Positions 7,649 to 27,352 of a stretch of 32,093 nucleotides of DNA are shown here, one piece after another (the first letter of the stretch is position 1; every line of letters begins with the position of its first letter). The position numbers and the translations under genes were made by a program. This DNA is from Gammaproteobacteria bacterium. Lineage in GTDB: Bacteria; Pseudomonadota; Gammaproteobacteria; Steroidobacterales; Steroidobacteraceae. Under the pieces are notes generated by a model. The model had not been told where the DNA came from and ran no database searches. It worked only from the letters and a program-made list of their open reading frames with translations. The DNA is taken from assembly GCA_019247195.1 (NCBI GenBank), contig JAFAPI010000159.1, positions 1-32,093 on the forward strand, read 5' to 3'.

Positions 7649-8674
7649 TCACCGCGATGTTACCTGCGCCTCGCTTTCGGCTGGGCCAAGTCTTATCGTG
7701 CGTCCCGTCTGCAGACTTTGTTCCGCCGCCAGCGCGAGGCGCTGCGCCGCGATTCCGTCCGCGAAGCCAGGAGAGACTGGCCGATCGTTTTGCAGCGCGT
7801 CGATGAAGGCATCGATTTCAGCGGCGTACGCTTGTTGATAGCGCCGGACGAAAAAGTCGACGACCCCGTCCTTCGCGGCCGTGTGCTGGGCGTCCCAGAT
7901 CTCTAGCGAGGTCGCGTGTTGGTTGTGGGCCTGCAACATGCCCTGCGACCCGAAGGCCTCGATTCGCTGATCGTAGCCGTAGACGCAGCGCCTGCTGTTA
8001 TTGATTTGTATCAATGCCCCGGTAGCAGTGCGCAAAGAAAGGACGCACGTATCGATGTCGCGCAGCTCAGCGAATACCGGGCCGACGAGATTGGCGCCCA
8101 GAGCGTGCACCGCCACGATCTCCCCTCCGAGCCACCGGGCCATGTCGAAATCATGAATGGTCATGTCGCGAAACAACCCCCCTGAGCCCTGAAGATACTC
8201 CGCGGTGGGAGGCGCAGGATCGCGACTGGTGATGACGGCGAGCTCCAGCGTGCCGATCGCTCCGGCGTGCAACCGCGCATGCAGGGCGCTGAAAGAGGCA
8301 TCAAAACGTCGATTGAAACCGACCATCACCACCGGGTCGTACGGCTCGAGCTCGCGCCAGCAGGCAAGCGCGGGCTCGAGATTGAGATCGAGCGGCTTTT
8401 CACAGAAAACCGCCTTGCCCGCTTTGACGGCGGAGCTGACGAGCTGGAGGTGCGTGGCAGTGGGACTCGCGATGAGGACCGCATCCACCGCGCGGTCCGC
8501 GAGCACATCCTCGAGCGATGCCGCGGCTGCGACGCCGAGCTCGCGGGCGGTTTTACCGGCCACCTGCGGGTCGACGTCGAACACGTAGACCAGATGGGCG
8601 CGCGGGTGCCGCGCGAGTATTTGCGCATGCAACCGTCCGATGCGCCCACACCCGATTACCGCCAGACCGCTCAT
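7649..8674 (-). CDS. iolG: Inositol 2-dehydrogenase (Gfo/Idh/MocA family)
   Basis: NAD-dependent oxidation of myo-inositol to 2-keto-myo-inositol, the first step of inositol catabolism. 341 aa. The N-terminal Rossmann motif is GCGRIGRLHAQ (residues 8-18). The EKPLDL motif near 94 carries the catalytic Lys. GLFRDMTIHDFDMARWLGG near 170 holds the Asp and His of the active site. The ATG at 8674 follows GGAGA by about 6 nt. It is last in the operon, 51 nt after iolB. Some relatives oxidise scyllo-inositol or other sugars, but the iolBCDE context favours IolG. No terminator was seen before the convergent hypothetical gene. Confidence 0.93.
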   Translation of the reverse strand: MSGLAVIGCGRIGRLHAQILARHPRAHLVYVFDVDPQVAGKTARELGVAAAASLEDVLADRAVDAVLIASPTATHLQLVSSAVKAGKAVFCEKPLDLNLEPALACWRELEPYDPVVMVGFNRRFDASFSALHARLHAGAIGTLELAVITSRDPAPPTAEYLQGSGGLFRDMTIHDFDMARWLGGEIVAVHALGANLVGPVFAELRDIDTCVLSLRTATGALIQINNSRRCVYGYDQRIEAFGSQGMLQAHNQHATSLEIWDAQHTAAKDGVVDFFVRRYQQAYAAEIDAFIDALQNDRPVSPGFADGIAAQRLALAAEQSLQTGRTIRLGPAESEAQVTSR

Positions 8675-8725
8675 CGGTGTCTCCGATCGTCGAATTCAAT
8701 CCCTGCTGGCCGGGACGCCGCTGCG

Positions 8726-9529
8726 TCAGCTCGGTGGCACGAGGAATTCGTAGCCCGGCGCCTGGGTCACCTGCCAGCGACGGACCGGGCCTGCCATCAC
8801 GTTGAGGTAGTAAAGGTCGAAACCGTGCGGCGCGGCCACCGGATGGTAACCGCGTGGGATGAGGACCAGGTCGCGGTCCTCGACCGCGAGGGTCTCATCG
8901 AGCGAACGGTCGTCCGTATAGACGCGCTGGAAGGCAAAGCCGCCCGGTCGCGAGAAACGATAATAGTAAATTTCCTCGAGCTGGGTCTCGTCTCTTGCGG
9001 CGGAGTCGTGCTTATGCGGCGGATAGCTCGACCAGTGGCCTCCGGGAGTGAGCACTTCGACCACCAACAAACTCTCGCCAGGCTCGTGCTGGGACAGAAT
9101 GTTGCGTACGTAGCGCGTGTTGGTACCCGTCCCCCTGACTTCTTCGCGCATCTGCTCGGGCCGGATCAGGCGCGGACTGAACCGCCCCTGGGCCGGTGCC
9201 GAACACACGGCGAGTTCACAGGCGCTCTGCGCCTGGACCGTGGCGCGCGCACGTGCGGGCACGTACACGGCGAAGGGAGGACCGTCGAACGGACTGGACC
9301 GCCCGCCAATGCCGGCGAAGCTCTGGTCGCCCACGTGGACCGAAGCCACGCCGGAGAGCAGCACCAGGCACAGCTCGGTTTCAGCGGCGTCGCGGACGAG
9401 TTGCTGTCCGGAGCACAAGTCCAGCACCTCGAAGCCGACGTAGTGCCAGCCCGCCCGCGCAGGAGTGAGATGGTGCACCCGGCCTCCGGCAGCGACCGAT
9501 GGGGGCTTGACCAACAATGAAGAGCTCAT
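8726..9529 (-). CDS. iolB: 5-deoxy-glucuronate isomerase
   Basis: Converts 5-deoxy-D-glucuronate to 2-deoxy-5-keto-D-gluconate in the cytosol. 267 aa, a bicupin of usual length. The C-terminal cupin shows the metal-site residues H172 and H174 (PPHKHD), the Glu in QLEEIYYYRF (185/186) and H229 in PRGYHPV. The ATG at 9529 overlaps the iolE stop in an ATGA, and MSSSLLVKPP is a natural IolB start; reading further upstream would only copy iolE in another frame. It lies between iolE and iolG in the operon. Confidence 0.95.
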   Translation of the reverse strand: MSSSLLVKPPSVAAGGRVHHLTPARAGWHYVGFEVLDLCSGQQLVRDAAETELCLVLLSGVASVHVGDQSFAGIGGRSSPFDGPPFAVYVPARARATVQAQSACELAVCSAPAQGRFSPRLIRPEQMREEVRGTGTNTRYVRNILSQHEPGESLLVVEVLTPGGHWSSYPPHKHDSAARDETQLEEIYYYRFSRPGGFAFQRVYTDDRSLDETLAVEDRDLVLIPRGYHPVAAPHGFDLYYLNVMAGPVRRWQVTQAPGYEFLVPPS

Positions 9530-10407
9530 CGCAGCTCCTCGGCTATCAGTCTGCGCAGGGTGGCGTATCCGCGCGTGGCATAGGTCAGCGGATCCGCGCG
9601 CTCCGGATCTTGTTCGGCCTCGAGCACGATCCAACCGGAATAGCCGTGCAATGCCCGGAACACCGACGCGAAATCGATGCAGCCGTCCCCCGGCACCGTG
9701 AATACCCCCGCCAGGACCGCCTGCAGGAAGCTCCAATCGCCGGCCGCGGCCTGCTCGCACACCTCGGCCCGCACATCCTTCGCATGCAGATGGCGGATTC
9801 TGCTGGCGTGGGAACGCGCGATCCGCAGCGGATCGGCGCCCGCAAAACGGGCATGCCCGGTATCCAGCAGCAGACCCACCTCAGGGCCGCTGGCCTCCAT
9901 GAGTGCATCGATGTCTGACTCGCTTTGCACTACAGTTCCCATGTGATGGTGATAGGCGAGCTGCACGCCTTCTTGTGCAGTCATGCGCGCAAGCTCGCTG
10001 AGCCGCTGCCCGAATCCCCGCCAGCCCCCCGCGCCCAGGCGTGGACGTCGCGCCAGCGGCTCGGACCGTGCTGAATGAATGGCGCCGCTTACTTCGGCAC
10101 AGATAAGCAGCGAGCTGCCGAGCGCCTTCAGCAGATCCAGATGCGCACGCAGATGGCGCAGCTCAGCGTTGGCGTCTCGCTCCCGCAGCCGCGCCGAATA
10201 CCATCCGGAGATGCATTTAAGGCCGTAGCGGCTCAGTACGGCGCTCAGCTCTGCAGCCTCGCGCGGAAACTTGTGCCCGAGCTCCATGCCCTCGAAACCG
10301 ATGTCGTGCGCCTGAGAGAGACAGGTCTCGAGCGAGATGTCTGCGCCGAGCTCGCGCAGGTCGTCGTTTGACCAGAGGATCGGGTTCGCGCCGATGTGAA
10401 TCCCCAT
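9526..10407 (-). CDS. iolE: Inosose dehydratase (2-keto-myo-inositol dehydratase)
   Basis: Removes water from 2-keto-myo-inositol to give 3D-trihydroxycyclohexane-1,2-dione. 293 aa xylose-isomerase-like TIM barrel. The family start IGANPILWSNDDL is intact, followed by GFEGMELGHKFP near residue 38. Later come YHHHMGTVV, LLLDTGHARFAG and HLHAKDV, which bear likely metal and acid/base residues, and a final EAEQDP. The ATG at 10407 is 1 nt after the iolD stop and its own stop overlaps the iolB start, so translation is tightly coupled. Confidence 0.95.
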   Translation of the reverse strand: MGIHIGANPILWSNDDLRELGADISLETCLSQAHDIGFEGMELGHKFPREAAELSAVLSRYGLKCISGWYSARLRERDANAELRHLRAHLDLLKALGSSLLICAEVSGAIHSARSEPLARRPRLGAGGWRGFGQRLSELARMTAQEGVQLAYHHHMGTVVQSESDIDALMEASGPEVGLLLDTGHARFAGADPLRIARSHASRIRHLHAKDVRAEVCEQAAAGDWSFLQAVLAGVFTVPGDGCIDFASVFRALHGYSGWIVLEAEQDPERADPLTYATRGYATLRRLIAEELR

Positions 10408-10408
10408 G

Positions 10409-12247
10409 TCACCCGGCCTTCGGCCCAGTGTCGCGCGCCGCCAGGTAGCGCTCCCGGGCCGCGCGGACCCCGGGTCGGGCAGATACCGCCGGCACTGGCA
10501 CGTCCCACCAGTGCCCGCCCGCCGCCGTACTCGAGCGCGGGTCGGTTTCGATCACGAGGACCATGGTGCGGTCCGCCTGACGCGCGTGCGCCAACGCGGA
10601 ATCGAGCCCGGCACACCCCTGCACTTTGAGGGCGAGCGCGCCGAGGCTGCGTGCGTGGGCTACCAGATCCACGCGCCCGCCTCCAGGCTGTGCGCCCAAC
10701 AGGTTGTTGAAGCTGGCGTTTCCCGTTGAGGCTTGCAGGCGCTCGATGCAGCCGAATCCGCCGTTATCGAGCAGCACGACGATAAGCTTGGCGCCCATGC
10801 GCACCGACGTCTCGATTTCCGAGTTCAGCATGAGATAGGAACCATCTCCCACCATGACAATCACCGTCTTGTCGGGATGCGCGAGCTTCACCCCGAGGCC
10901 ACCGGCGATCTCGTATCCCATGCAGGAGAAACCGTATTCGAGGTGATAGCCCGAGTCGGGCTCCACGCGCCAGTGCTTGTGCAGTTCCCCGGGGAGCCCG
11001 CCGGCGGCGCCGACCACGATGTCCGCACCTTGCAGCGAGCGCTGCACCACACCAATGACCTGCGCGTCGCTCGGCCGCGCCCTGCCCTCGTCCCCCGTCA
11101 GCGAGGCGCTGGCCTTGCGCCAGTTGTCCTGCTCCGCGCCGGCCCGCAGGCTCCAGCTCTCGGGCGCGCGCCACTCCTGGAGTGCATCGCTCAGCTGCTG
11201 CAGGCCTTCACGCGCGTCCGCAACGAGCGGGATTGCGCGGTACTTGCCCGCATCCCACGGCTGCACGTTGAGGCCGATGATGCGCAGGCGCGGGGCACGA
11301 AACAGTGTGGCTGAGCCCGTAGTGAAGTCCTGCAGGCGGGTGCCGATGGCGAGGATAACGTCCGCTTCGGCAGCCATGTTGTTGGCCGCAGCGGTGCCGG
11401 TAACACCGATACCCCCTAGATTCAGGGGGTGGTCTCCGGGCAGGGCCGACTTGCCGGCCTGGGTCTCGGCGCTCGGCACGCGGTGCCGCTCGCAGAACTC
11501 GCGCAGAGTCGGGCCCGCCTCGGAATAAAGGACCCCCCCGCCGCATATGATGAGCGGACGCCGGCCGGCTGCCAGGGTCGCCGCGGCCTCGCGCAACTCA
11601 TCCCGTGGCGGTGGCGCACGCCTGAGAGTCCACACTTGGTCCTCGAACAGCATCGCGGGCCAATCAAATGCCTCGGCCTGGACGTCCTGACAGAGGCACA
11701 GCGTCGCCGGACCACATGTCGCCGGGTCGGTCAGCACCTGCAACGCTCTCTGCAGCGCCGGCACGAGTTGCTCCGGACGAGTGATGCGATCGAAGTACCG
11801 GGAAACGGGGCGCAGCGTGTCATTCGCGGTGATCAGGCCGTCGTTGAAGTCTTCGAGCTGCTGCAGGACCGGATCAGGCGCACGGTTGGCGAACACGTCC
11901 CCCGGCAGCAGCAGTACCGGCAGCCGATTCACGTGGGCGACTGCCGCCGCGGTGACCAGGTTGGTCGCCCCCGGGCCGATGGAAGTCGTGCAGGCCATCA
12001 TGCGGCGCCTGTTGCAGGCCTTGGCGAAGGCGACTGCCGCGTGCGCCATCGCCTGCTCGTTGTGCGCGCGATAGGTCGGCAGCGATGGTTGCGCTTCGAA
12101 CAATGCCTCCCCGAGGGCTGCGACGTTGCCATGTCCAAAGATCGCCCATACGCCGGCGAACAGCCGCTCGCGCCTGCCCTGCACGTCGGTCCACTGCGCG
12201 GCCAGCGACCTGACCAGCGCCTGCGCAACCGTCAGGCGCAGGCTCAC
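10409..12247 (-). CDS. iolD: 3D-(3,5/4)-trihydroxycyclohexane-1,2-dione acylhydrolase (ThDP-dependent)
   Basis: Opens the inositol ring: hydrolyses the cyclic dione to 5-deoxy-glucuronate. 612 aa, near the family norm. The N-terminal ThDP-Pyr domain carries the cofactor-activating Glu in YRAHNEQAMA (E64). The central domain has the ICGGGVLYSEA segment. The C-terminal ThDP-Mg motif begins GDGSYLMLNSEIETS and ends with NGGFGCIERLQ. The GTG at 12247 is preferred over an in-frame ATG seven codons upstream. It forms a GTGA overlap with the iolC stop and gives the family start (V/M)SLRLTVAQALV. It is coupled to iolC and iolE. Confidence 0.96.
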   Translation of the reverse strand: MSLRLTVAQALVRSLAAQWTDVQGRRERLFAGVWAIFGHGNVAALGEALFEAQPSLPTYRAHNEQAMAHAAVAFAKACNRRRMMACTTSIGPGATNLVTAAAVAHVNRLPVLLLPGDVFANRAPDPVLQQLEDFNDGLITANDTLRPVSRYFDRITRPEQLVPALQRALQVLTDPATCGPATLCLCQDVQAEAFDWPAMLFEDQVWTLRRAPPPRDELREAAATLAAGRRPLIICGGGVLYSEAGPTLREFCERHRVPSAETQAGKSALPGDHPLNLGGIGVTGTAAANNMAAEADVILAIGTRLQDFTTGSATLFRAPRLRIIGLNVQPWDAGKYRAIPLVADAREGLQQLSDALQEWRAPESWSLRAGAEQDNWRKASASLTGDEGRARPSDAQVIGVVQRSLQGADIVVGAAGGLPGELHKHWRVEPDSGYHLEYGFSCMGYEIAGGLGVKLAHPDKTVIVMVGDGSYLMLNSEIETSVRMGAKLIVVLLDNGGFGCIERLQASTGNASFNNLLGAQPGGGRVDLVAHARSLGALALKVQGCAGLDSALAHARQADRTMVLVIETDPRSSTAAGGHWWDVPVPAVSARPGVRAARERYLAARDTGPKAG

Positions 12248-14172
12248 ACCCGCCCCCGGTCCAGGCATTCCGCTCGGGCCTGGCGCGCGTCAATCCACAG
12301 ATCGATCAGTACCTGGCAGCGTTCGGTCATCTCTCGTATCGCACTCTCATCCCCGAGGTGCCCCGACCGCCATTCCGTGGCCGCGGCGTCGAACATCGTA
12401 TGCCCGACAGCGAGGCCCCGCACGATGGCCTGCTCGGCAGCGAGCTGGAGCGCTTGATCCAGCCCGGGCAGGGGCGCGACTCGCGCACTGACCAGGATGC
12501 CGCGACAGAACGGGTCCCCCCTAGCGATCGCCTCGGCGCACGCGCGCCAGGCCGCCGCGCTCGGCTGCGGCTCGAGCTGCCACCAATCCGGCCGCACGCC
12601 GATCTCGTACAGCCGTGCGAGCACCTGCGCGGTGTTCTCGCCTGAACCGCCCGCCGCAACGACCGGGATCTCGAGCAGCAGCTCGCGATGCTGGGCGCGG
12701 CAGCTCGCCGCCAGACGCAGCAGCTCTCGCTCCTGGGCCAATCTGAGCGCGGCCGGCTCTCCCGGGTAGAACAGGCAGCGACACGCCGCGGCAACCTGGG
12801 CCGGCCACTCGTTGAGGCGCGATGCCAGGCTGGCCGCCCCGTGAAACTGCAGTGGGTGCGAGGCCGGGCGCTCGACGCGGCGGGCGAGCCACAGCGTGCC
12901 GCGGCGCGCATGCGACCAAGCCCCGCTTCCCGCAACAGGGGCCAGCAACACGCCGACGCCCTGCCGCGTGGCGGCGAGGCGCTCAGCAGCCTCGAGCAGG
13001 AGCATCGGCAGCTGCGCCGCTCGGTCGCGCACCGCTGCGTTATGGTCGCCGATCGCCTCAGAGGCTGGCTGATCGTCGACAGCGAACACAAACAGTTGCG
13101 CCGGACCCGGTTTGCGGGTGGTCACCCAGTGGAGGTGATTGAGCGCGTCATCCTCGCGCAATGCCCGGTGCTCGCTGCCGCGCATGAGATAGTGGTTCAG
13201 CTCCGGCAACGTCGGAAACTCCGCCGAGCACATGAGGCGCGACACGGCGATGGCACCGCAGGCATTGCCGAGGCGCGCGCTCTCCGCAAGCGACTCACCG
13301 CGCAGATAGCCGCGCAGGAATCCCGCCAGGAACGCGTCTCCGGCACCGAGGACGTTGTAAACCGAGACGTTCATGCCGCCCGCCACCAGTCCATCCTCAA
13401 GGCGGGCGGGAATGCGGTCGGGAAACACGACGCAGCCGCGGGGGCCGCGCTTACAGACGATGATGCCTCGAGAGTGTTCGCGAATGCGCCCAATCGCCGT
13501 CAACAGCTCCTCGGCACCCCCGGCGATGCGCAGTTCTTCCTCCGTGCCCACGATCAGGTCGCAGTGCGGCAACACTGACTGAAGGGCGGCCGTGGCGCTC
13601 GCTGAGGGGGCGTAGCGATTCTCACCGCCGGCGTGGCCGCCGATGCCCCAGAGGGTGGGACGATAATCGATGTCGATAATGACTCGCTGACCTGCTTTTC
13701 GTGCGATATCGATGGCCTTGCGTTGCGCCCGCGCGGCGTCGGCGATGGAGAAGTGCGTGCCGGTTACGAGGATGGCGCGCGAGGAGGCCACGAATGCCTC
13801 GTCGATGTCGGCCGGGGCCAGGGCGCTGTCGGCACAATTCTCGCGATAGAAGATGAGGGGGAATCGCTCCTGGTCCTGAACACTGAGCAGCACGAGTGAG
13901 GTCAGGCGCTGTGGGTCGGTATGCATGCCGCGCGTATCGACCGCTTCGCGGCGCAGCTGCTCCAGAACGAAGCGTCCCATCGGCTCGTTGCCGACGCGGC
14001 TGATGAGCGCCGATTTGAGCCCGAGGCGCGCAGCTCCAATGGCGATATTGGCCGGACACCCGCCGACTGCCTTGAGAAAGCTCGACACGTCCTCCAGCCG
14101 CGCGCCTATCTGCTGGCCGTACAGGTCCACGCTCACGCGCCCGATGGTGATGAGATCCAGCTGCGGATTCAT
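12244..14172 (-). CDS. iolC: 5-dehydro-2-deoxygluconokinase fused to a divergent DUF2090 domain
   Basis: 642 aa with two parts. Residues 1 to about 330 are a PfkB kinase that phosphorylates 2-deoxy-5-keto-gluconate. It has GGCPANIAIGAARLG near 37 and the catalytic NVLGAGDAF with D279. Residues about 340-642 are a DUF2090 domain, a LacD-like fold usually held to be the aldolase that cleaves the product. Here expected conserved positions differ. FAFDHR reads FAVDDQ (363-368), (V/I)KCL reads CRCL (464-467), WWK reads WWQ (530-532) and GRTIF reads GHTMF (590-594). The expected residues are recalled from relatives. The kinase half looks intact. The ATG at 14172 gives the family start and lies 34 nt after the transporter stop. 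Confidence 0.95.
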   Translation of the reverse strand: MNPQLDLITIGRVSVDLYGQQIGARLEDVSSFLKAVGGCPANIAIGAARLGLKSALISRVGNEPMGRFVLEQLRREAVDTRGMHTDPQRLTSLVLLSVQDQERFPLIFYRENCADSALAPADIDEAFVASSRAILVTGTHFSIADAARAQRKAIDIARKAGQRVIIDIDYRPTLWGIGGHAGGENRYAPSASATAALQSVLPHCDLIVGTEEELRIAGGAEELLTAIGRIREHSRGIIVCKRGPRGCVVFPDRIPARLEDGLVAGGMNVSVYNVLGAGDAFLAGFLRGYLRGESLAESARLGNACGAIAVSRLMCSAEFPTLPELNHYLMRGSEHRALREDDALNHLHWVTTRKPGPAQLFVFAVDDQPASEAIGDHNAAVRDRAAQLPMLLLEAAERLAATRQGVGVLLAPVAGSGAWSHARRGTLWLARRVERPASHPLQFHGAASLASRLNEWPAQVAAACRCLFYPGEPAALRLAQERELLRLAASCRAQHRELLLEIPVVAAGGSGENTAQVLARLYEIGVRPDWWQLEPQPSAAAWRACAEAIARGDPFCRGILVSARVAPLPGLDQALQLAAEQAIVRGLAVGHTMFDAAATEWRSGHLGDESAIREMTERCQVLIDLWIDARQARAECLDRGRV

Positions 14173-14206: not shown

Positions 14207-15493
14207 TCAGGAGAATCGAGTGCGTTTCCACAGCGTGACCCCCCCGGCCAGGAGCAGCCCGAGCGATGCAGCACCAAGGATCGTCAGCCAGCCGGCATTG
14301 ACAACGATTGCCTGGGCACGCGCGTGCCATCCTAACCAGGCGAATATCGCAATTGCAGCGGCGACGATGAGTAGCTCCCACCAGCGCCAGGGGCCGCGGG
14401 CGGCTGCGGATTCGCATCCGGCGAGCGAGGCGGCGACGCGCTCCCGATCGAGGCCATAGCGCAGACACTCCCGCTCCACCGCGGCCTGCCATTCCCGCTG
14501 CTCTTCTGGCGCCGCGGCCGCGAGGCTGATAGCGGCTGCGCCGCCGATCATGATCAGCGAGCCGACCACCACCAGGGTCTGCGCGGCAGGCGTCATGTTG
14601 GCGAGCTCACCGAATACCAGCACGCCCCAAGCGAGGCCCCACAGTTGGTTCGTGTTGGAGAGGGGGATGGCCCGGCTGATGCCGATGTACTTGGCCGCGT
14701 ATTGCTGGAACAAGTCTCCAAGCACCCAGCAGAAACCACCGAGGAAGAGCCAGAACATGGCCGGCTCTGCTTGCCGCAGCGAGATAAGTACCCTGGCCGT
14801 GCCCCCGCCGAAACACGCCGCGAGGATGAACACCGTGGCGAGCTCGCCCACGGTAAAGACGGTCACGAACGAGAGCGGATTCATGCCACTGAGGTAGGCC
14901 TTGCGGTAGGGGATATACATCGTGCCCCAGAGAAGTGCGGCACCCAGCGCCGCGATGACGCCCGGTGCGGCACTGCGTCGCAGGGTATGGGCCTCACCGA
15001 CTGCGGTGACGTAGGCGAGTACGCAGGCACCGATCACGATTGCGGCGGCGCCCATCAGGACCTTAAGCCGACCCCGGCTCGCACCGCCCCGCAGCTCGTT
15101 GAACAGCAGCCAGCCCCAGAACACCCCCACCAGGCTATTCACGTTCCACAACGGAAACGCGATCGACAGCCCCACGTCACGGATGGCGAACACGGTGAGC
15201 GTGTTGGCGACCGCCCACAGCATGCCGGCAACGATCGCCCAGATGACCAGATGTGGCTTCTCGCGCAGGTCCTCCCAGACATAGCGGGTGCCCTTAAGCG
15301 CGACCGGCACCGTCCAGCGCGCCACGAACACGCCCATCACCATCCCCAGCGACACGATGAATGGTGAGAAGCCGATGGCCACCAGTTTGGTGGGCGCCTC
15401 CGCCGAACCGAGCCACGCGCCAGCGACGAGGCCACAGAGCACGCCCACCCCGTGGAGAGTGTAGCCGCCCGCCTGCTCGGCGCCCGTGCTCAT
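14207..15493 (-). CDS. GRP/DMT-family sugar transporter, candidate inositol importer
   Basis: 428-aa inner-membrane carrier of the drug/metabolite superfamily, resembling the glucose/ribose porter and RhaT-like group. Residues about 12-325 make some ten hydrophobic helices with repeat signatures AFPLWNVNSLVGVFWGWLLF (111-130) and RAIPLSNTNQLWGLAWGVLV (274-293). These are the two internally duplicated substrate-region motifs of GRP porters. A charged linker (about 330-370) leads to two more helices (372-391 and 399-420) that GlcU/RhaT-type porters lack. It is the only transporter in the iol operon, so an inositol-import role is inferred. Its ATG overlaps the stop of a 33-codon upstream frame. 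Confidence 0.85.
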   Translation of the reverse strand: MSTGAEQAGGYTLHGVGVLCGLVAGAWLGSAEAPTKLVAIGFSPFIVSLGMVMGVFVARWTVPVALKGTRYVWEDLREKPHLVIWAIVAGMLWAVANTLTVFAIRDVGLSIAFPLWNVNSLVGVFWGWLLFNELRGGASRGRLKVLMGAAAIVIGACVLAYVTAVGEAHTLRRSAAPGVIAALGAALLWGTMYIPYRKAYLSGMNPLSFVTVFTVGELATVFILAACFGGGTARVLISLRQAEPAMFWLFLGGFCWVLGDLFQQYAAKYIGISRAIPLSNTNQLWGLAWGVLVFGELANMTPAAQTLVVVGSLIMIGGAAAISLAAAAPEEQREWQAAVERECLRYGLDRERVAASLAGCESAAARGPWRWWELLIVAAAIAIFAWLGWHARAQAIVVNAGWLTILGAASLGLLLAGGVTLWKRTRFS

Positions 15494-19016: not shown

Positions 19017-21722
19017 ATGTCGCGAGTACTCAGATTCTCGATAGGGATCCTTTTGTCCTGGGTCGGCGCTGTGATGCTCGCTATCCCAGTACAAGCGGCG
19101 GTCGAGGCCGTGGACACCTCCTCCGATGAACGGCCACCCGGCCGGCCAGCAGACGCGTTGCAGGAAGTCACCGTGCTCGGTCAGCGGACGACGCCCGAGT
19201 TGGCGCGTGCGGCGCAGGAGGAAGCGCTTAACCTGATCAATCTGACGACCGTCGACGAGATGCAACGACTGCCGGATGTGAATACCGGCGAGGCGATTCG
19301 GCGCGTGCCAGGCATTTCTCTGGAGACTGACACCGGCGAGGGGCGCTATATCAACATCCGCGGCCTCGATGCCGATCTCAACAGCACCACCTTCGGCGGC
19401 CTGCGCCTGCCCCCCACTAACAACAGCTCCCCCTCCGGAGCCGGCCGCGCAGTCGCATTTGACTCGATCCCCATCGGCTTCGTGGGGGCCATCAAGGTCA
19501 CCAAGTCCAACCTGCCGGAGCAGGATGCCGAAGCCCTTGGTGGCACGATTGACATCACGCCCCGCACGGCGCCCCCCAACGGCAAGCCCTTTCTGGATCT
19601 GCGTGTCGGCACGGGCATGGAATTGCTGCGGCACACCTGGATCACCGACCTCGCCGGCACCGCCGGACTGCGTTTCGGCGGCAGCGGCGGCTATCAGCCG
19701 TTCAGCGTCCTCTTCACGGCTTCGACCTACGACGATAGACGCGGCATCGACGATGCCGAGGCGGGGTTCGTCGACAACCAGGCCGGCGGCATCCCGGACA
19801 AGGCCATGGCAGGTTTCGAGCAACGCTTCTATAAATACCACCGCGAGCGGCATGGTTACGGCGTCGATCTCGGCTTCGAGCCCGACGATAACAGCCGCTA
19901 CTTCGTGCGTTACTACGACGCGGGCTACTCAGAGACGGTCATCCGTAACCGGCTGCTGTGGAACCTGAGCGGCGCTGCAACCGTAAACCCCGCGAACCCC
20001 AACGGACTGCTGGATATCGGCACCTTCACCAAGGCGCTGCGCGATGAGAAGGAGTTCCTGGACTCGAAGGTCGCCGAGATCGGCGGCAGCAACCGCTTCG
20101 GCGATAACCTGCTCGACTACCACGTCGGCTATACCAAGGGCACCTACTACAAACCCTACGATTACAACTCGGGTTTCGATAACCCCGCGCAGGCCAACGT
20201 CGCGTACGACAACACGACCCTGCCGAACTGGCCGGTCTTTACCGTCCTGCCCGGGACGGCGGGTAACGGCACGGTTGCGGTAAACCCGACCGACCCCGCC
20301 GGCTACGTGCTGACCGGCCTGCGCACCCAGTCGCAGCATTCGGATGATCATGAGTGGGGCATCGGCGCCAACCTGGCCATTCCGGTGCACTTCACCGACA
20401 CGCCGGAGGAACAGTTCAAGCTCGGCGTGAACGCGCGCCTGCGCACCAGGACCGGCGATCAGACCTCGCTCAGTGTCACGAATGTCCCGGCTTTGCCGCT
20501 GTCAGGCGCGATTTTCGGCCCCGACGTGATCTTCTATAAGGGGCACTACAACAACGGACCCCAGATCGACGGGTTGGTGCTGCGTGACCTCTACGCCGCG
20601 GCGCTGGCGGCCGGGAACGTCAGTCCCGACCCGGTAGGGGACACTCTCTACTCAGTGCGCGACAAGGAAGACGTGTACGCCGCCTATGGCCAGTATCGGT
20701 TCGGGTTTGGCCGCCTCGGACTCGTGGCGGGCCTGCGTATCGAGCGCACCCAGGCGACCTATGCGGGCTTCGCGTCCGACACCTCTGGTTCCCTCCAGAG
20801 CGCGGGGTGTCCCATCCTCGCGCCGGGCCCGCCCCCGGTTCACGTCTGTCCGGTCTCGAGCGACCGCAAGTACACCAATTACTTCCCGAGTGTACAGGCG
20901 CGCTACGAGATCGACTCGAACTTGATCGCGCGGGCTGCCCTGTCCTCTACGATTGCCCGTCCGGGCTTCCAGCAGGTCACCGCCGCCACGATCGTCGACA
21001 ACGGCGGAAACATCACCACCGGCAATCCCAACCTTAAGCCCACCACGGCGACAGGGCTGGACCTCGCCCTCGAGAAGTACCTGCCACACGCGGGCATCCT
21101 CTCCGCCGGCGTGTTCGCCAAGGATATCCGCAACTACATCGTACAGAATGTGAGCCAGCAGGTCGGGCGCCAGCAGTCCGAAGGTAACCTCGGTCTGGTG
21201 CACGTCATCAGTTTCGCCAACGCTGGCACTTCGCACCTGTACGGGTTCGAGACCAACTACGTCGACCACTTCACCTCGCTGCCGGGCCTGTGGAGCGGGC
21301 TCGGGGTGTCAGCCAACTGGACCTGGGTGGACTCGCGCTACCAGGTCCCGGTGGCGGATCCGGTGACGCAGCTGACGACGGGATCGCGCGACTCCATGTT
21401 GCCTTCGACCTCGCGCAATACAGCGAACGCGGAACTCCTTTACGACCGCGGCGGTCTGGACGTCACGCTGGGTGCCTATTACACGAGCAAGAACATCTTT
21501 GGCCTCGGCAACACTGCCGCGCTCGATGTGTGGACGCAGGAGCGATTGAGCGTGGACTTGGGAAGCCAATACCACCTGAACGACGCCTTCCAGCTGTACC
21601 TCAACATCAAGAATCTCACGAACACGCCGCTCAAGTTCACCGAAGGTCCCGGGGAGAATCGGATCATCCAGCGCGAGTTCTACGGCCTCACGCTGCAGGC
21701 CGGCTTCATGTACCGCCTCTAG
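19017..21722 (+). CDS. TonB-dependent outer-membrane receptor (Xanthomonas/Caulobacter type)
   Basis: 901 aa. A signal peptide (about 1-28, ending VQAA) is followed by ALQEVTVLGQR (about 46-56), a TonB-box-like start. The plug domain includes LPDVNTGEAIRRVPGISLE and INIRGLDADLNST, the signature of the large receptors of Xanthomonas and Caulobacter that import sugars and other organic nutrients. A long beta-barrel follows and ends in a terminal aromatic-rich strand (LTLQAGFMYRL). GGAG lies 5 nt before the ATG at 19017. It is divergent from the phosphatase, suggesting joint control; the substrate could be phytate, a phosphorylated sugar or something unrelated. No adjacent anti-sigma/ECF pair is present. 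Confidence 0.92.
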   Translation: MSRVLRFSIGILLSWVGAVMLAIPVQAAVEAVDTSSDERPPGRPADALQEVTVLGQRTTPELARAAQEEALNLINLTTVDEMQRLPDVNTGEAIRRVPGISLETDTGEGRYINIRGLDADLNSTTFGGLRLPPTNNSSPSGAGRAVAFDSIPIGFVGAIKVTKSNLPEQDAEALGGTIDITPRTAPPNGKPFLDLRVGTGMELLRHTWITDLAGTAGLRFGGSGGYQPFSVLFTASTYDDRRGIDDAEAGFVDNQAGGIPDKAMAGFEQRFYKYHRERHGYGVDLGFEPDDNSRYFVRYYDAGYSETVIRNRLLWNLSGAATVNPANPNGLLDIGTFTKALRDEKEFLDSKVAEIGGSNRFGDNLLDYHVGYTKGTYYKPYDYNSGFDNPAQANVAYDNTTLPNWPVFTVLPGTAGNGTVAVNPTDPAGYVLTGLRTQSQHSDDHEWGIGANLAIPVHFTDTPEEQFKLGVNARLRTRTGDQTSLSVTNVPALPLSGAIFGPDVIFYKGHYNNGPQIDGLVLRDLYAAALAAGNVSPDPVGDTLYSVRDKEDVYAAYGQYRFGFGRLGLVAGLRIERTQATYAGFASDTSGSLQSAGCPILAPGPPPVHVCPVSSDRKYTNYFPSVQARYEIDSNLIARAALSSTIARPGFQQVTAATIVDNGGNITTGNPNLKPTTATGLDLALEKYLPHAGILSAGVFAKDIRNYIVQNVSQQVGRQQSEGNLGLVHVISFANAGTSHLYGFETNYVDHFTSLPGLWSGLGVSANWTWVDSRYQVPVADPVTQLTTGSRDSMLPSTSRNTANAELLYDRGGLDVTLGAYYTSKNIFGLGNTAALDVWTQERLSVDLGSQYHLNDAFQLYLNIKNLTNTPLKFTEGPGENRIIQREFYGLTLQAGFMYRL

Positions 21723-24541: not shown

Positions 24542-27187
24542 TCAAAACCGGTAGCCGAGCTTGACCCCGATGACCCGCGGCCGGGTGATCTCCTCCTGCA
24601 GCGCGAATTGCGCGGTCGACGTATAGATGCTCTTGATCACATTGGTCAGGTTCTGTCCATAGAGATCGACGCTCCACGCATCCCTCGCCACCCCGAGAGC
24701 AGCGTCATATTGAGTGTTGCCGGGGGTCTCGAAGCGCAGCTGGTTGGTGTTGATCACACCACTCACGGACAGTGCGGGATTCGCGCCGGACTGTGTGTAG
24801 GAGTGCGCCGTGTGCACCGCCCCGGCCTGCGCATAGAGGTTGTAGTTGTTCATCAGCCACTGGTAGCGCAAGCGCAGATTGAACTGAAAGGGCGGCGAGT
24901 TCGCGCTGGGGCTGCCCGGGTTGCCGTAAGGGTTGACGATGTTCGTCAGCGGTTGGCCGTATTCGGCCGCCGTGGCGGGATTGGCCAGCAGCATAGGATT
25001 GTTGGCGATGAGGAACGGCGAGTTGGTCTGGGTACTGCTGTTCCAGGAAGCCGCCCCCTGCGCGGTCAGTCCCTCGGTGAGAACCGCGATGACCGAGGTC
25101 TCCACCCCGCGGATCCGGTAGTCCGGCCCGTTGGCGTTAAAGCCCACGTTGCCCAGCAAGCCGGGCTGAAAGAAGGAGACCTGCACGTTCTTCCAATCCT
25201 CCTGGTAGACGGCACCATTGAACTGCACGCGGCGGTTTAAGAGCTCTGTCTTCCAGCCGAGCTCGTTATTGGTCAACGAGTCGGAGGCGTAGGGCAGCGG
25301 CGAGCAATAGGTCTTTGTGCCGGCGGCGTCGGGGATGTAGCACCCAGAGCTGCGGTTGAAGGCTCCCGGCCGGAAGCCCTGCGACCAGGTGTAGTAAACG
25401 AACACGTCGGGGGTGATGTGCCAAGTGAGATTGGCACGGCTCTTGAAGCCCTTATACGTGGTGTGCAGGTTCTCGTTGTCAATGTTGGTGGCGACGTTCA
25501 GGCACGGCGCCGGACCTGCTTCGTAGCAACCCGGGCCGTCGAAGCTACCCACGACCGCACCCTTCTCCACGTTATCGAAGTGGTAATAGCGCGTGCCGGC
25601 GGTCACCGTGAGGACCTTGGGTACCAGGTCGAAATCCCAAGAGGTGAACAGAGCCTTTTGTCGGTACCCGCGCTTCACGTCGTTGAAGAAGGCCGTATTG
25701 TCGCCGCGGGTGCTCGGATCGTTGACGCTCGCGCCCGCCGGGGGTCCGATGTTGGTCAGACACCCGAACGGGACGCTCGCCGTGCACGGCGGCAGCGTCT
25801 TGTAGTTCCAGTTCAGCTGGTCGTAGATGCGCAGGTCCTCCCAGAAGGCGCCCGCGATGCCGCGCAACCGCCACTCATCGGGGGTGCTGAGACGCAGCTC
25901 GTGGCTCTGGTGAGTGTTGCGCTCGACTTCGGTCCAGGTCGTAGCCGGGGAATAGCAATAGGCGGCGAGACCATGCTGCGGCTCGGCGCCGTGGCGACAC
26001 TGGTAGTAATCCGCGTACAGACCGCGCGCGTAATTGGTGTAGTCCTGGACCGTGTCGAAATTGCGCACCAGGTACGACCCCGCATATACCAGCCGCAGGC
26101 TCCCCACCCTGCCGTCGATGGTCAGCGCGGTATTCTCGAAGCGATCCTTGTTATAGGAAGGATTGAACAGGGTGACCGACTGCTTCGGCAGCGGTGCGCC
26201 GTCGGAGCTGAAGGGCATCTGGTAGAAGACCCCACGCGCGTCGATGTCCTGATAGCTCTGAACCAGCAGCGCTTCCCACGCATCGTTGACGGCCCAGCGA
26301 CCCGACAGCCGCACCCCCTGATAGGTGACCGGGTTGATCGCGTTGTTAACCAGCCCCGCATTGTTGATGACCGGCGAACCGGGCGGGACCTGGCACGGCG
26401 GCCCGCCAAGCGGGGGCGAATTCGGACCGCAACCGCTGGGGAAATTGGCATAGTGGATGCCGTTGTCGCTCGGCTCGCGGGTGAAGGTGGCCGGCACATT
26501 GTTGATGTAGCCGCCGCGGCGATCGTTGTACACCACGCCACGCAGCGCGACCCGGTCGGGCAACACGGGCAGGTTCAGGACCGCCGTGATGTCGCTGTTC
26601 GGATCGCCACCCGCGGTGGTGCTGTAGCCACCGGTGACCGCGCCCTCCACGACGTTGAGTTTCGGCTTGTTGGTGATATAGCGGATCACCCCGGCCTGTG
26701 CGCCGGCACCGAACAGTGTCCCCTGGGGCCCCTCGAGCACTTCGACCCGCTCCAGATCCGCGGCATACACGTCAAGATTGCGGCCGGGCAGCTGGCCGGA
26801 CTGATCATCGAGGTAGATGGCCACGTTGGGGAAGCCGCTGATCGAGCCGCCGGACTGTGTCGCCACGCTGCCCGAACTGAGGCCGCGCATGAAGACCTGA
26901 TCCTGTCCGGGCCCGGCGGAAGGCGCCGACACGTTAGGCAGGTAGCGGACCAGGTCATCGAAGTTGGTGACCTTCAGTTCCTTGAGCGTGTCGGCTGTGA
27001 ATGCCTGGATGGCAATCGGCACGTCCTGCGCGTTCTCGCTGCGCCGCTGAGCGGTGACGACCACTTCCTGGATGCCGACCGTCGGCGCTTCATTCGCGGT
27101 GTCCGCGACTGCCCCATAGGCGAGTCCACCGGCCTGAGTACCGAGGATCGCGGCCACTGCACGCGCGCATTGGTGATTGATCTTCAT
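24542..27187 (-). CDS. TonB-dependent outer-membrane receptor with five cysteine pairs
   Basis: 881 aa. The signal region is about 1-28, then the TonB-box-like IQEVVVTAQRRSENAQDVP (39-57). The plug has LVRYLPNVSAPS, VFMRGLSS and LDDQSGQ, and the signature LERVEVLEGPQGTLFGAGAQAGVIRY (145-170). The barrel ends in the typical final strand (PRVIGVKLGYRF). All ten cysteines of the mature protein fall in five close pairs (253/265, 397/411, 468/476, 554/562, 616/628) and look like disulfide-closed extracellular loops. A GGGGAGGAT ribosome-binding site supports the ATG at 27187. Receptors of this class import varied organic compounds; the substrate here is unknown. Confidence 0.93.
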   Translation of the reverse strand: MKINHQCARAVAAILGTQAGGLAYGAVADTANEAPTVGIQEVVVTAQRRSENAQDVPIAIQAFTADTLKELKVTNFDDLVRYLPNVSAPSAGPGQDQVFMRGLSSGSVATQSGGSISGFPNVAIYLDDQSGQLPGRNLDVYAADLERVEVLEGPQGTLFGAGAQAGVIRYITNKPKLNVVEGAVTGGYSTTAGGDPNSDITAVLNLPVLPDRVALRGVVYNDRRGGYINNVPATFTREPSDNGIHYANFPSGCGPNSPPLGGPPCQVPPGSPVINNAGLVNNAINPVTYQGVRLSGRWAVNDAWEALLVQSYQDIDARGVFYQMPFSSDGAPLPKQSVTLFNPSYNKDRFENTALTIDGRVGSLRLVYAGSYLVRNFDTVQDYTNYARGLYADYYQCRHGAEPQHGLAAYCYSPATTWTEVERNTHQSHELRLSTPDEWRLRGIAGAFWEDLRIYDQLNWNYKTLPPCTASVPFGCLTNIGPPAGASVNDPSTRGDNTAFFNDVKRGYRQKALFTSWDFDLVPKVLTVTAGTRYYHFDNVEKGAVVGSFDGPGCYEAGPAPCLNVATNIDNENLHTTYKGFKSRANLTWHITPDVFVYYTWSQGFRPGAFNRSSGCYIPDAAGTKTYCSPLPYASDSLTNNELGWKTELLNRRVQFNGAVYQEDWKNVQVSFFQPGLLGNVGFNANGPDYRIRGVETSVIAVLTEGLTAQGAASWNSSTQTNSPFLIANNPMLLANPATAAEYGQPLTNIVNPYGNPGSPSANSPPFQFNLRLRYQWLMNNYNLYAQAGAVHTAHSYTQSGANPALSVSGVINTNQLRFETPGNTQYDAALGVARDAWSVDLYGQNLTNVIKSIYTSTAQFALQEEITRPRVIGVKLGYRF

Positions 27188-27352
27188 TGGCGGATCCTCC
27201 CCTTGACCCGTGTCCGCCGCATGCGCAGCCGCAGCAGCATCTGCGTTGGGTTGCACCGCGCTCGTTCGGAGTTTCTAAAGTTCGCGGGAACGTCGCCGCA
27301 ACGACGGACCGCATGCATTGCAACGCCCCATGCCGCGCTGCATACTCGGTAA

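Follow-up and report, generated by a model that had tools for sequence, protein, structure and literature searches.

The inositol operon on contig JAFAPI010000159.1 of a Steroidobacteraceae bacterium, analysed here as a window of 32,093 nucleotides, encodes an IolC of 642 residues (12244–14172, minus strand) in which a PfkB-type kinase is fused to a DUF2090 domain, as recognised from its translation, Pfam and NCBIfam. Sequence comparisons suggest that, in the clade of the window, IolC works as a 2-deoxy-5-keto-gluconate kinase whose fused aldolase half is dead (a pseudo-aldolase), the cleavage step having passed to another aldolase, a reading to which we give a probability of about 70%. On the same evidence, the DUF2090 half taken alone is very probably dead as an aldolase. 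The IolC-DUF2090 fusion is known; what is new is its variant with a seemingly dead aldolase half in a clade, of which no report was found in literature searches. According to this reading, the DUF2090 half would no longer cleave the kinase product, 2-deoxy-5-keto-gluconate-6-phosphate, and this reaction would now fall to a different dihydroxyacetone-phosphate aldolase, the class I fructose-bisphosphate aldolase of housekeeping metabolism being the likeliest. Two reasons might explain why the dead half persists: the C-terminal half, still folded, may support the kinase in its fold or its oligomer, and the 3' end of the half overlaps the iolD start. A first-pass annotation of this DNA had proposed that the aldolase half may be inactive and that the phosphorylated intermediate may need another enzyme; both proposals fit the sequence evidence, the two conserved lysines of the domain being gone.

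The kinase half (residues 6–320; 13213–14157, minus strand; Pfam, 162 bits) is conserved, whereas the DUF2090 half (residues 324–629; 12286–13203, minus strand; PF09863, 256 bits for a cut-off of 27) appears catalytically degenerate. The whole protein passes the cut-offs of TIGR04382 (5-dehydro-2-deoxygluconokinase IolC; 382 bits for 300) and of NF047869 (bifunctional kinase/aldolase; 617.5 bits for 600), the latter score being one that does not single out the catalytic residues. For the kinase half, the best structural match of the AlphaFold model was IolC 2qcv; the lists returned by structure searches with the window model were filled by this half, hence uninformative on the C-terminal half, for which a LacD-like fold has the support of the sequence profile described below.

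Degeneracy was read from an alignment of 24 DUF2090 domains (A1), 16 of them from the genus of the window and the other 8 from its class, drawn from the window locus L001 as row 1 and 32 further loci, L002–L033. The loci dropped were L012 and L019 (fragments of a single gene interrupted by N, both canonical), L017 and L021 (second matches of included genes), L018 (a remnant) and L030–L033 (one pseudogene); row L014 starts within the domain, and row L016 is short by 10 start residues, being full length in the 40-row comparison below. Fourteen rows are canonical and 10 degenerate, and 13 diagnostic residues are common to the canonical ones. As the canonical rows were picked from A1 into alignment A2, invariance in A2 is by choice, and the loci of a genome scan therefore serve as the independent test of the 13 residues. 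Among the best 80 of 590 confirmed scan loci, mostly from Alphaproteobacteria and selected with a pattern that demands PDWW and leaves the following lysine free, all 13 residues are kept in 78, in agreement with the near-invariance of the motif positions proposed in the first-pass annotation. The exceptions are L089, with one D to E change, and L080, which belongs to the same clade as the window. Alignments A3 and A4 include 41 of the 80 scan loci. Measured against 40 canonical full-length rows, the window protein retains 87 of the 91 columns that are invariant in the kinase half, but only 41 of the 59 that are invariant in DUF2090; the former count and the TIGR04382 score bear out the earlier description of the kinase half as intact.

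In the window protein, D366-D367-Q368 stands at canonical DHR (13069–13077, by alignment), Ala463 at the lysine of VKCL (12784–12786), opposite Lys126 of LacD (5f2l/5ff7), Arg465 at a canonical leucine (12778–12780), Gln532 at the lysine of WWK (12577–12579) and His591 at the arginine of GRTIF (12400–12402), while the canonical catalytic glutamate is kept as Glu501 (12670–12672), all on the minus strand. The changes proposed earlier from FAFDHR to FAVDDQ (363–368), from WWK to WWQ (530–532) and from GRTIF to GHTMF (590–594) read as stated, with DHR aligned to DDQ, Gln532 at the WWK lysine and GR aligned to GH. For the change from VKCL to CRCL, the residues at 464–467 are indeed CRCL, but the exchange of Lys for Arg does not hold, since the lysine aligns with Ala463 and Arg465 replaces leucine. 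Across the 10 degenerate rows, the WWK position never holds lysine (Q, A, G, V or L stands there), nine rows lack the lysine of VKCL and nine the arginine of GR, and eight share Arg465; the glutamate is retained in nine and WW in all.

A profile built from the canonical domains gave weak matches in the PDB (best E 0.00025) to structures of LacD and to 8tnf, a DUF2090 protein of solved structure. This profile pairs Lys126 and Glu164 of LacD with canonical VK and LLE, and DQR, VK, LE, YK and GR of 8tnf with canonical DHR, VK, LLE, WWK and GR. A phmmer search of the PDB with the window's DUF2090 domain alone found nothing relevant. Passages of Price et al. (2022; PMC9007349) on the IolC-DUF2090 fusions propose DUF2090 as the aldolase, describe Lys126 and Glu164 of LacD as catalytic and conserved in the fusions, and report that each of the 9 fusions for which fitness data exist is important in growth on inositol. 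Compared with the fusion as NF047869 and those passages present it (PMC9007349), the window protein has the same domain order, kinase half and operon setting and passes the cut-offs, but lacks the aldolase catalytic residues except the glutamate. Its likeness to LacD and 8tnf is a weak but significant profile similarity over the barrel motifs; both of these keep DQR, VK and the glutamate (8tnf also YK and GR), whereas the window IolC keeps only the glutamate. We take Lys205 of LacD, which matches the WWK lysine, to be the Schiff-base residue. Price et al. name Lys126 instead, and as both conserved lysines are lost, the case for inactivity is independent of which one forms the Schiff base. A DUF2090 half still active as an aldolase with altered residues would account for the retention of Glu501 and of the PDWW scaffold, and NF047869 still names the protein bifunctional. 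However, the motif set has lost its two lysines together with its His and its Arg, and the 10 degenerate species differ mutually at the motif sites, so that we regard continued activity as highly improbable.

The degenerate half is common to 10 species of one genus of uncultured bacteria, the window's included, and since nine further species show the same kind of loss, a single faulty assembly does not account for it. The window's draft genome, G000, totals 3.18 Mb in 257 contigs and is 92% complete. It is one of 99 genomes compared, of which 18, G000 among them, have a DUF2090 match; these 18 all belong to the genus of the window, with the domain intact in 7, degenerate in 10 and reduced to a remnant in 1. 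In a tree of the kinase half, with DUF2090 excluded, the nine degenerate rows that have a kinase fall on one side of a branch (100/100) and intact G032 adjoins them (97/93). The IolD tree unites G032, the 10 degenerate species and two species without iolC in a 13-row clade (100/99), the inner order of which it leaves unresolved; all trees were midpoint-rooted, for drawing only. From these sequences, a single loss of the aldolase residues would be the simplest account of the distribution. In a class sample, 10 of 274 genomes match DUF2090, G000 included, and every row read there other than the window's is canonical. A phylum sample of 398 genomes, judged solely on score and on the length of the frame, has matches in 70; other matches in frames of at least 437 residues score 366–505 bits against 259 for the window, and G694 (129 bits) and G428 (21 bits) match in 350-residue frames. 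Locus L029 of the class sample scores 186 bits yet has all 13 diagnostic residues, hence a low DUF2090 score alone proves nothing. Two cases lie elsewhere: in G207 of the class sample (L030–L033), a one-contig genome of 1.4 Mb, DUF2090 is broken by stops, an independent loss in another family; and L044, from a Solirubrobacterales record, is an IolC fusion placed among alphaproteobacterial rows, through transfer or a mixed bin.

The rate of nonsynonymous change (dN) in DUF2090 divided by that in the kinase is 2.05–3.70 in 28 degenerate pairs and 1.23–1.89 in 10 intact pairs, without overlap. Relative to synonymous change (dS), a simple counting method gives dN/dS of 0.24–0.64 for degenerate DUF2090 (45 pairs), 0.15–0.36 for intact DUF2090 (13 of 15 pairs computable) and 0.13–0.31 for the kinase half of degenerate proteins (28 pairs), ranges that overlap and are rough because synonymous sites are near saturation. 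The sequences thus indicate that the DUF2090 half changes faster than the kinase, under a constraint that is relaxed yet not absent. From the column of E324 to the stop, degenerate proteins have 309–320 residues, except in G047 (292), G024 (263) and G020 (244), and six canonical rows have 312–316. In AlphaFold models, the mean predicted local distance difference test score (pLDDT) is 85.8 for the window IolC and 91.6 for a canonical protein, and the helix after DHR (368–377) is confident in the canonical protein and falls below 50 in the window IolC.

Constraint of this kind could also be expected of a half repurposed as a regulatory or binding module, for example one sensing sugar phosphate for the kinase, with conserved residues of its own. 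Seven positions have a clade consensus, including Arg465 (8/10), Arg496 (10/10; His in 12 of 14 canonical rows), Gly591 (8/10; His in the window) and Ala430 (10/10); in 66 of 316 columns, nine or all ten degenerate rows have the same residue, and dN/dS stays below 1. These shared residues may, however, reflect plain ancestry. All 28 degenerate pairs change faster relative to the kinase than any of the 10 intact pairs, which points to decay, as do the shortening in three species and the disordered active-site loop of the AlphaFold model, and two species have lost iolC but for a remnant. We therefore hold repurposing to be possible but unlikely. Under a dead half, one possible reason for the iolC frame staying open to its end is its overlap with iolD: the iolC stop and the candidate iolD start, itself inferred, share four bases, GTGA (12244–12247, minus strand), so that translational coupling is possible. 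By eye, this overlap is found in 9 of 10 degenerate loci.

The two species without iolC, G040 and G033, have no IolC kinase above cut-off (best 82 and 45 bits against 300). Their iolD passes its cut-off (in G033 with pieces added), and their iolD-E-B-G genes are 63–79% identical to the window's. A remnant of about 30 DUF2090 codons stands directly before iolD and is the same in both, as is the iolD start region. Between the two genomes, dN/dS for iolD, iolE, iolB and iolG is 0.13–0.29, and these genes thus seem useful still after the loss of iolC. In L162 of G033, the assembled iolD (8121–9848) lacks about 57 internal codons in frame, adjoining the iolC remnant, through either decay or an assembly fault. 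Such genomes, with iolD conserved, the kinase absent and a shared remnant, are what would be seen if the aldolase step now lay outside the pathway, IolG-E-D-B ending at 2-deoxy-5-keto-gluconate or feeding another route while IolC disappears. This account is rather improbable: the other clade members keep a kinase under the constraint given above, scoring 378–385 bits like intact relatives (381–405), the operon of G033 may be dying, given its shortened iolD, and one species pair only, both drafts, displays the pattern.

If the DUF2090 half is dead and the kinase product is still cleaved, a stand-in should be encoded elsewhere. IolJ of Bacillus subtilis, which we take to be a PF01116-type enzyme, performs the same pathway step with a family other than DUF2090. 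The first-pass annotation had pointed to IolJ or another class II aldolase as worth seeking, and PF01116 gave no match in the draft genome G000. IolJ replacement was rejected, as PF01116 occurs in none of the 18 DUF2090-bearing genomes; the 16 of 58 genus genomes that have it are all others. A DeoC/LacD-type PF01791 enzyme was also set aside, with none in G000 and matches in 22 of 58 genomes; it occurs in 2 of the 10 degenerate genomes and in 5 of the 7 intact ones, and so is rarer where the half is dead. Class I fructose-bisphosphate aldolase (PF00274) has one copy in G000 (G000:C228:6718-7725) and occurs in 54 of 58 genus genomes and 9 of 10 degenerate ones; it was matched in 0 of 14 control genomes, and the class II enzyme in 16 of 58 genus genomes. 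We infer that the class I enzyme is the most general candidate for the stand-in. A passage of Boutte et al. (2008; PMC2597717) proposes fructose-bisphosphate aldolase for this step in Caulobacter, which gives a parallel in kind only.

G000 also encodes one PF00596 protein (G000:C198:6382-7191), a class II aldolase that could have taken over the cleavage. Orthologues (61–86% identical) occur in 7 of 10 degenerate genomes, G040 and the intact neighbour G032; in G020, G053 and G027 the gene shares a contig with iolC, whose start is about 2 kb away. The gene has the same neighbour in 9 of 9 loci compared, a major facilitator superfamily transporter by Pfam in G053. Takeover by this enzyme is nevertheless improbable, with PF00596 present in G001, G043 and G057, all without iolC over cut-off, and not found in the drafts of the window's nearest relative G016 or of G047, G024 and G033; its presence in intact G032 further suggests an origin before the loss. 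Separately, in L131 (G009:C198), an N-terminal piece of IolC stands at the end of a contig that also carries the PF00596 orthologue; this is possibly one more clade member.

Several observations weigh against a dead half whose reaction has passed to another aldolase. The catalytic Glu501 is retained in the window and the VKCL lysine in G046, and the seven positions with a new clade consensus could signal a new role. The matches of the canonical profile to the PDB are weak, as their best E of 0.00025 indicates, and the mixed profile A1 shifts the 8tnf alignment such that YK is no longer opposite WWK, making this pairing less certain. By eye, the four-base overlap with iolD is also found in 3 of 5 intact loci shown, and a GGAG-like stretch in the last iolC codons, present in 7 of 10 degenerate loci, is absent from the window; coupling alone does not, therefore, explain the dead half. 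Class I fructose-bisphosphate aldolase is present with intact or dead DUF2090, so that its presence is no test of the stand-in idea. Finally, the near-saturated synonymous sites blur the dN/dS comparison, and the clade genomes are drafts, some 71–83% complete.

The operon of the window has the order iolC-iolD-iolE-iolB-iolG, and all five genes exceed their own NCBIfam cut-offs. On the minus strand, iolC is followed by iolD (10409–12247; TIGR04377, 896 bits for 715), iolE (9526–10407; TIGR04379, 382 for 290), iolB (listed open reading frame 8726–9760; TIGR04378, 325 for 205) and iolG (7649–8674; TIGR04380, 394 for 355). The iolB match begins at residue 97, hence its true start is probably internal. 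A domain search found no second DUF2090 copy in the draft genome G000, and (methyl)malonate-semialdehyde dehydrogenase is present elsewhere in it (664 bits). A GRP/EamA-type sugar transporter lies upstream of iolC (14207–15493, minus strand; PF06800, PF00892), in contrast to the ATP-binding cassette sugar transporter (binding protein, ATPase and permease) beside iolG in L161, L162, L165, L168 and L171, identified by Pfam in L161 and by similarity in the other four. Further along the window, a histidine acid phosphatase (PF00328; 17583–19853, minus strand), containing the motif RHGVRAP and, within its open reading frame, a signal-like start, and two nearby TonB receptors (19017–21722, plus strand; 24542–27256, minus strand) resemble a phytate-to-inositol neighbourhood.

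Judged by its residues, the window protein is misnamed as bifunctional by NF047869, and pathway predictions relying on this name would wrongly mark the aldolase step as present. The loss points to a further enzyme in a step whose assignment to DUF2090 dates from as late as 2022, in the passages cited above (PMC9007349). A further proposal, that inositol is broken down without a dedicated phosphate aldolase, the pathway eroding from its lower end and IolG-E-D-B being selected for a shorter route or a deoxy-keto-sugar acid product, is doubtful; if true, the aldolase half would have been lost first and the whole iolC next. In bifunctional enzymes with one dead half, the catalytic domain stays in the protein after its activity is lost. 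Unlike pseudoenzyme domains in general, the present case offers several stages in one genus, up to gene loss: an intact neighbour, one row that still has a lysine, seemingly dead halves, shortened halves and loss of the whole gene. This series lets one study the death of a fused enzyme half while its partner stays conserved.

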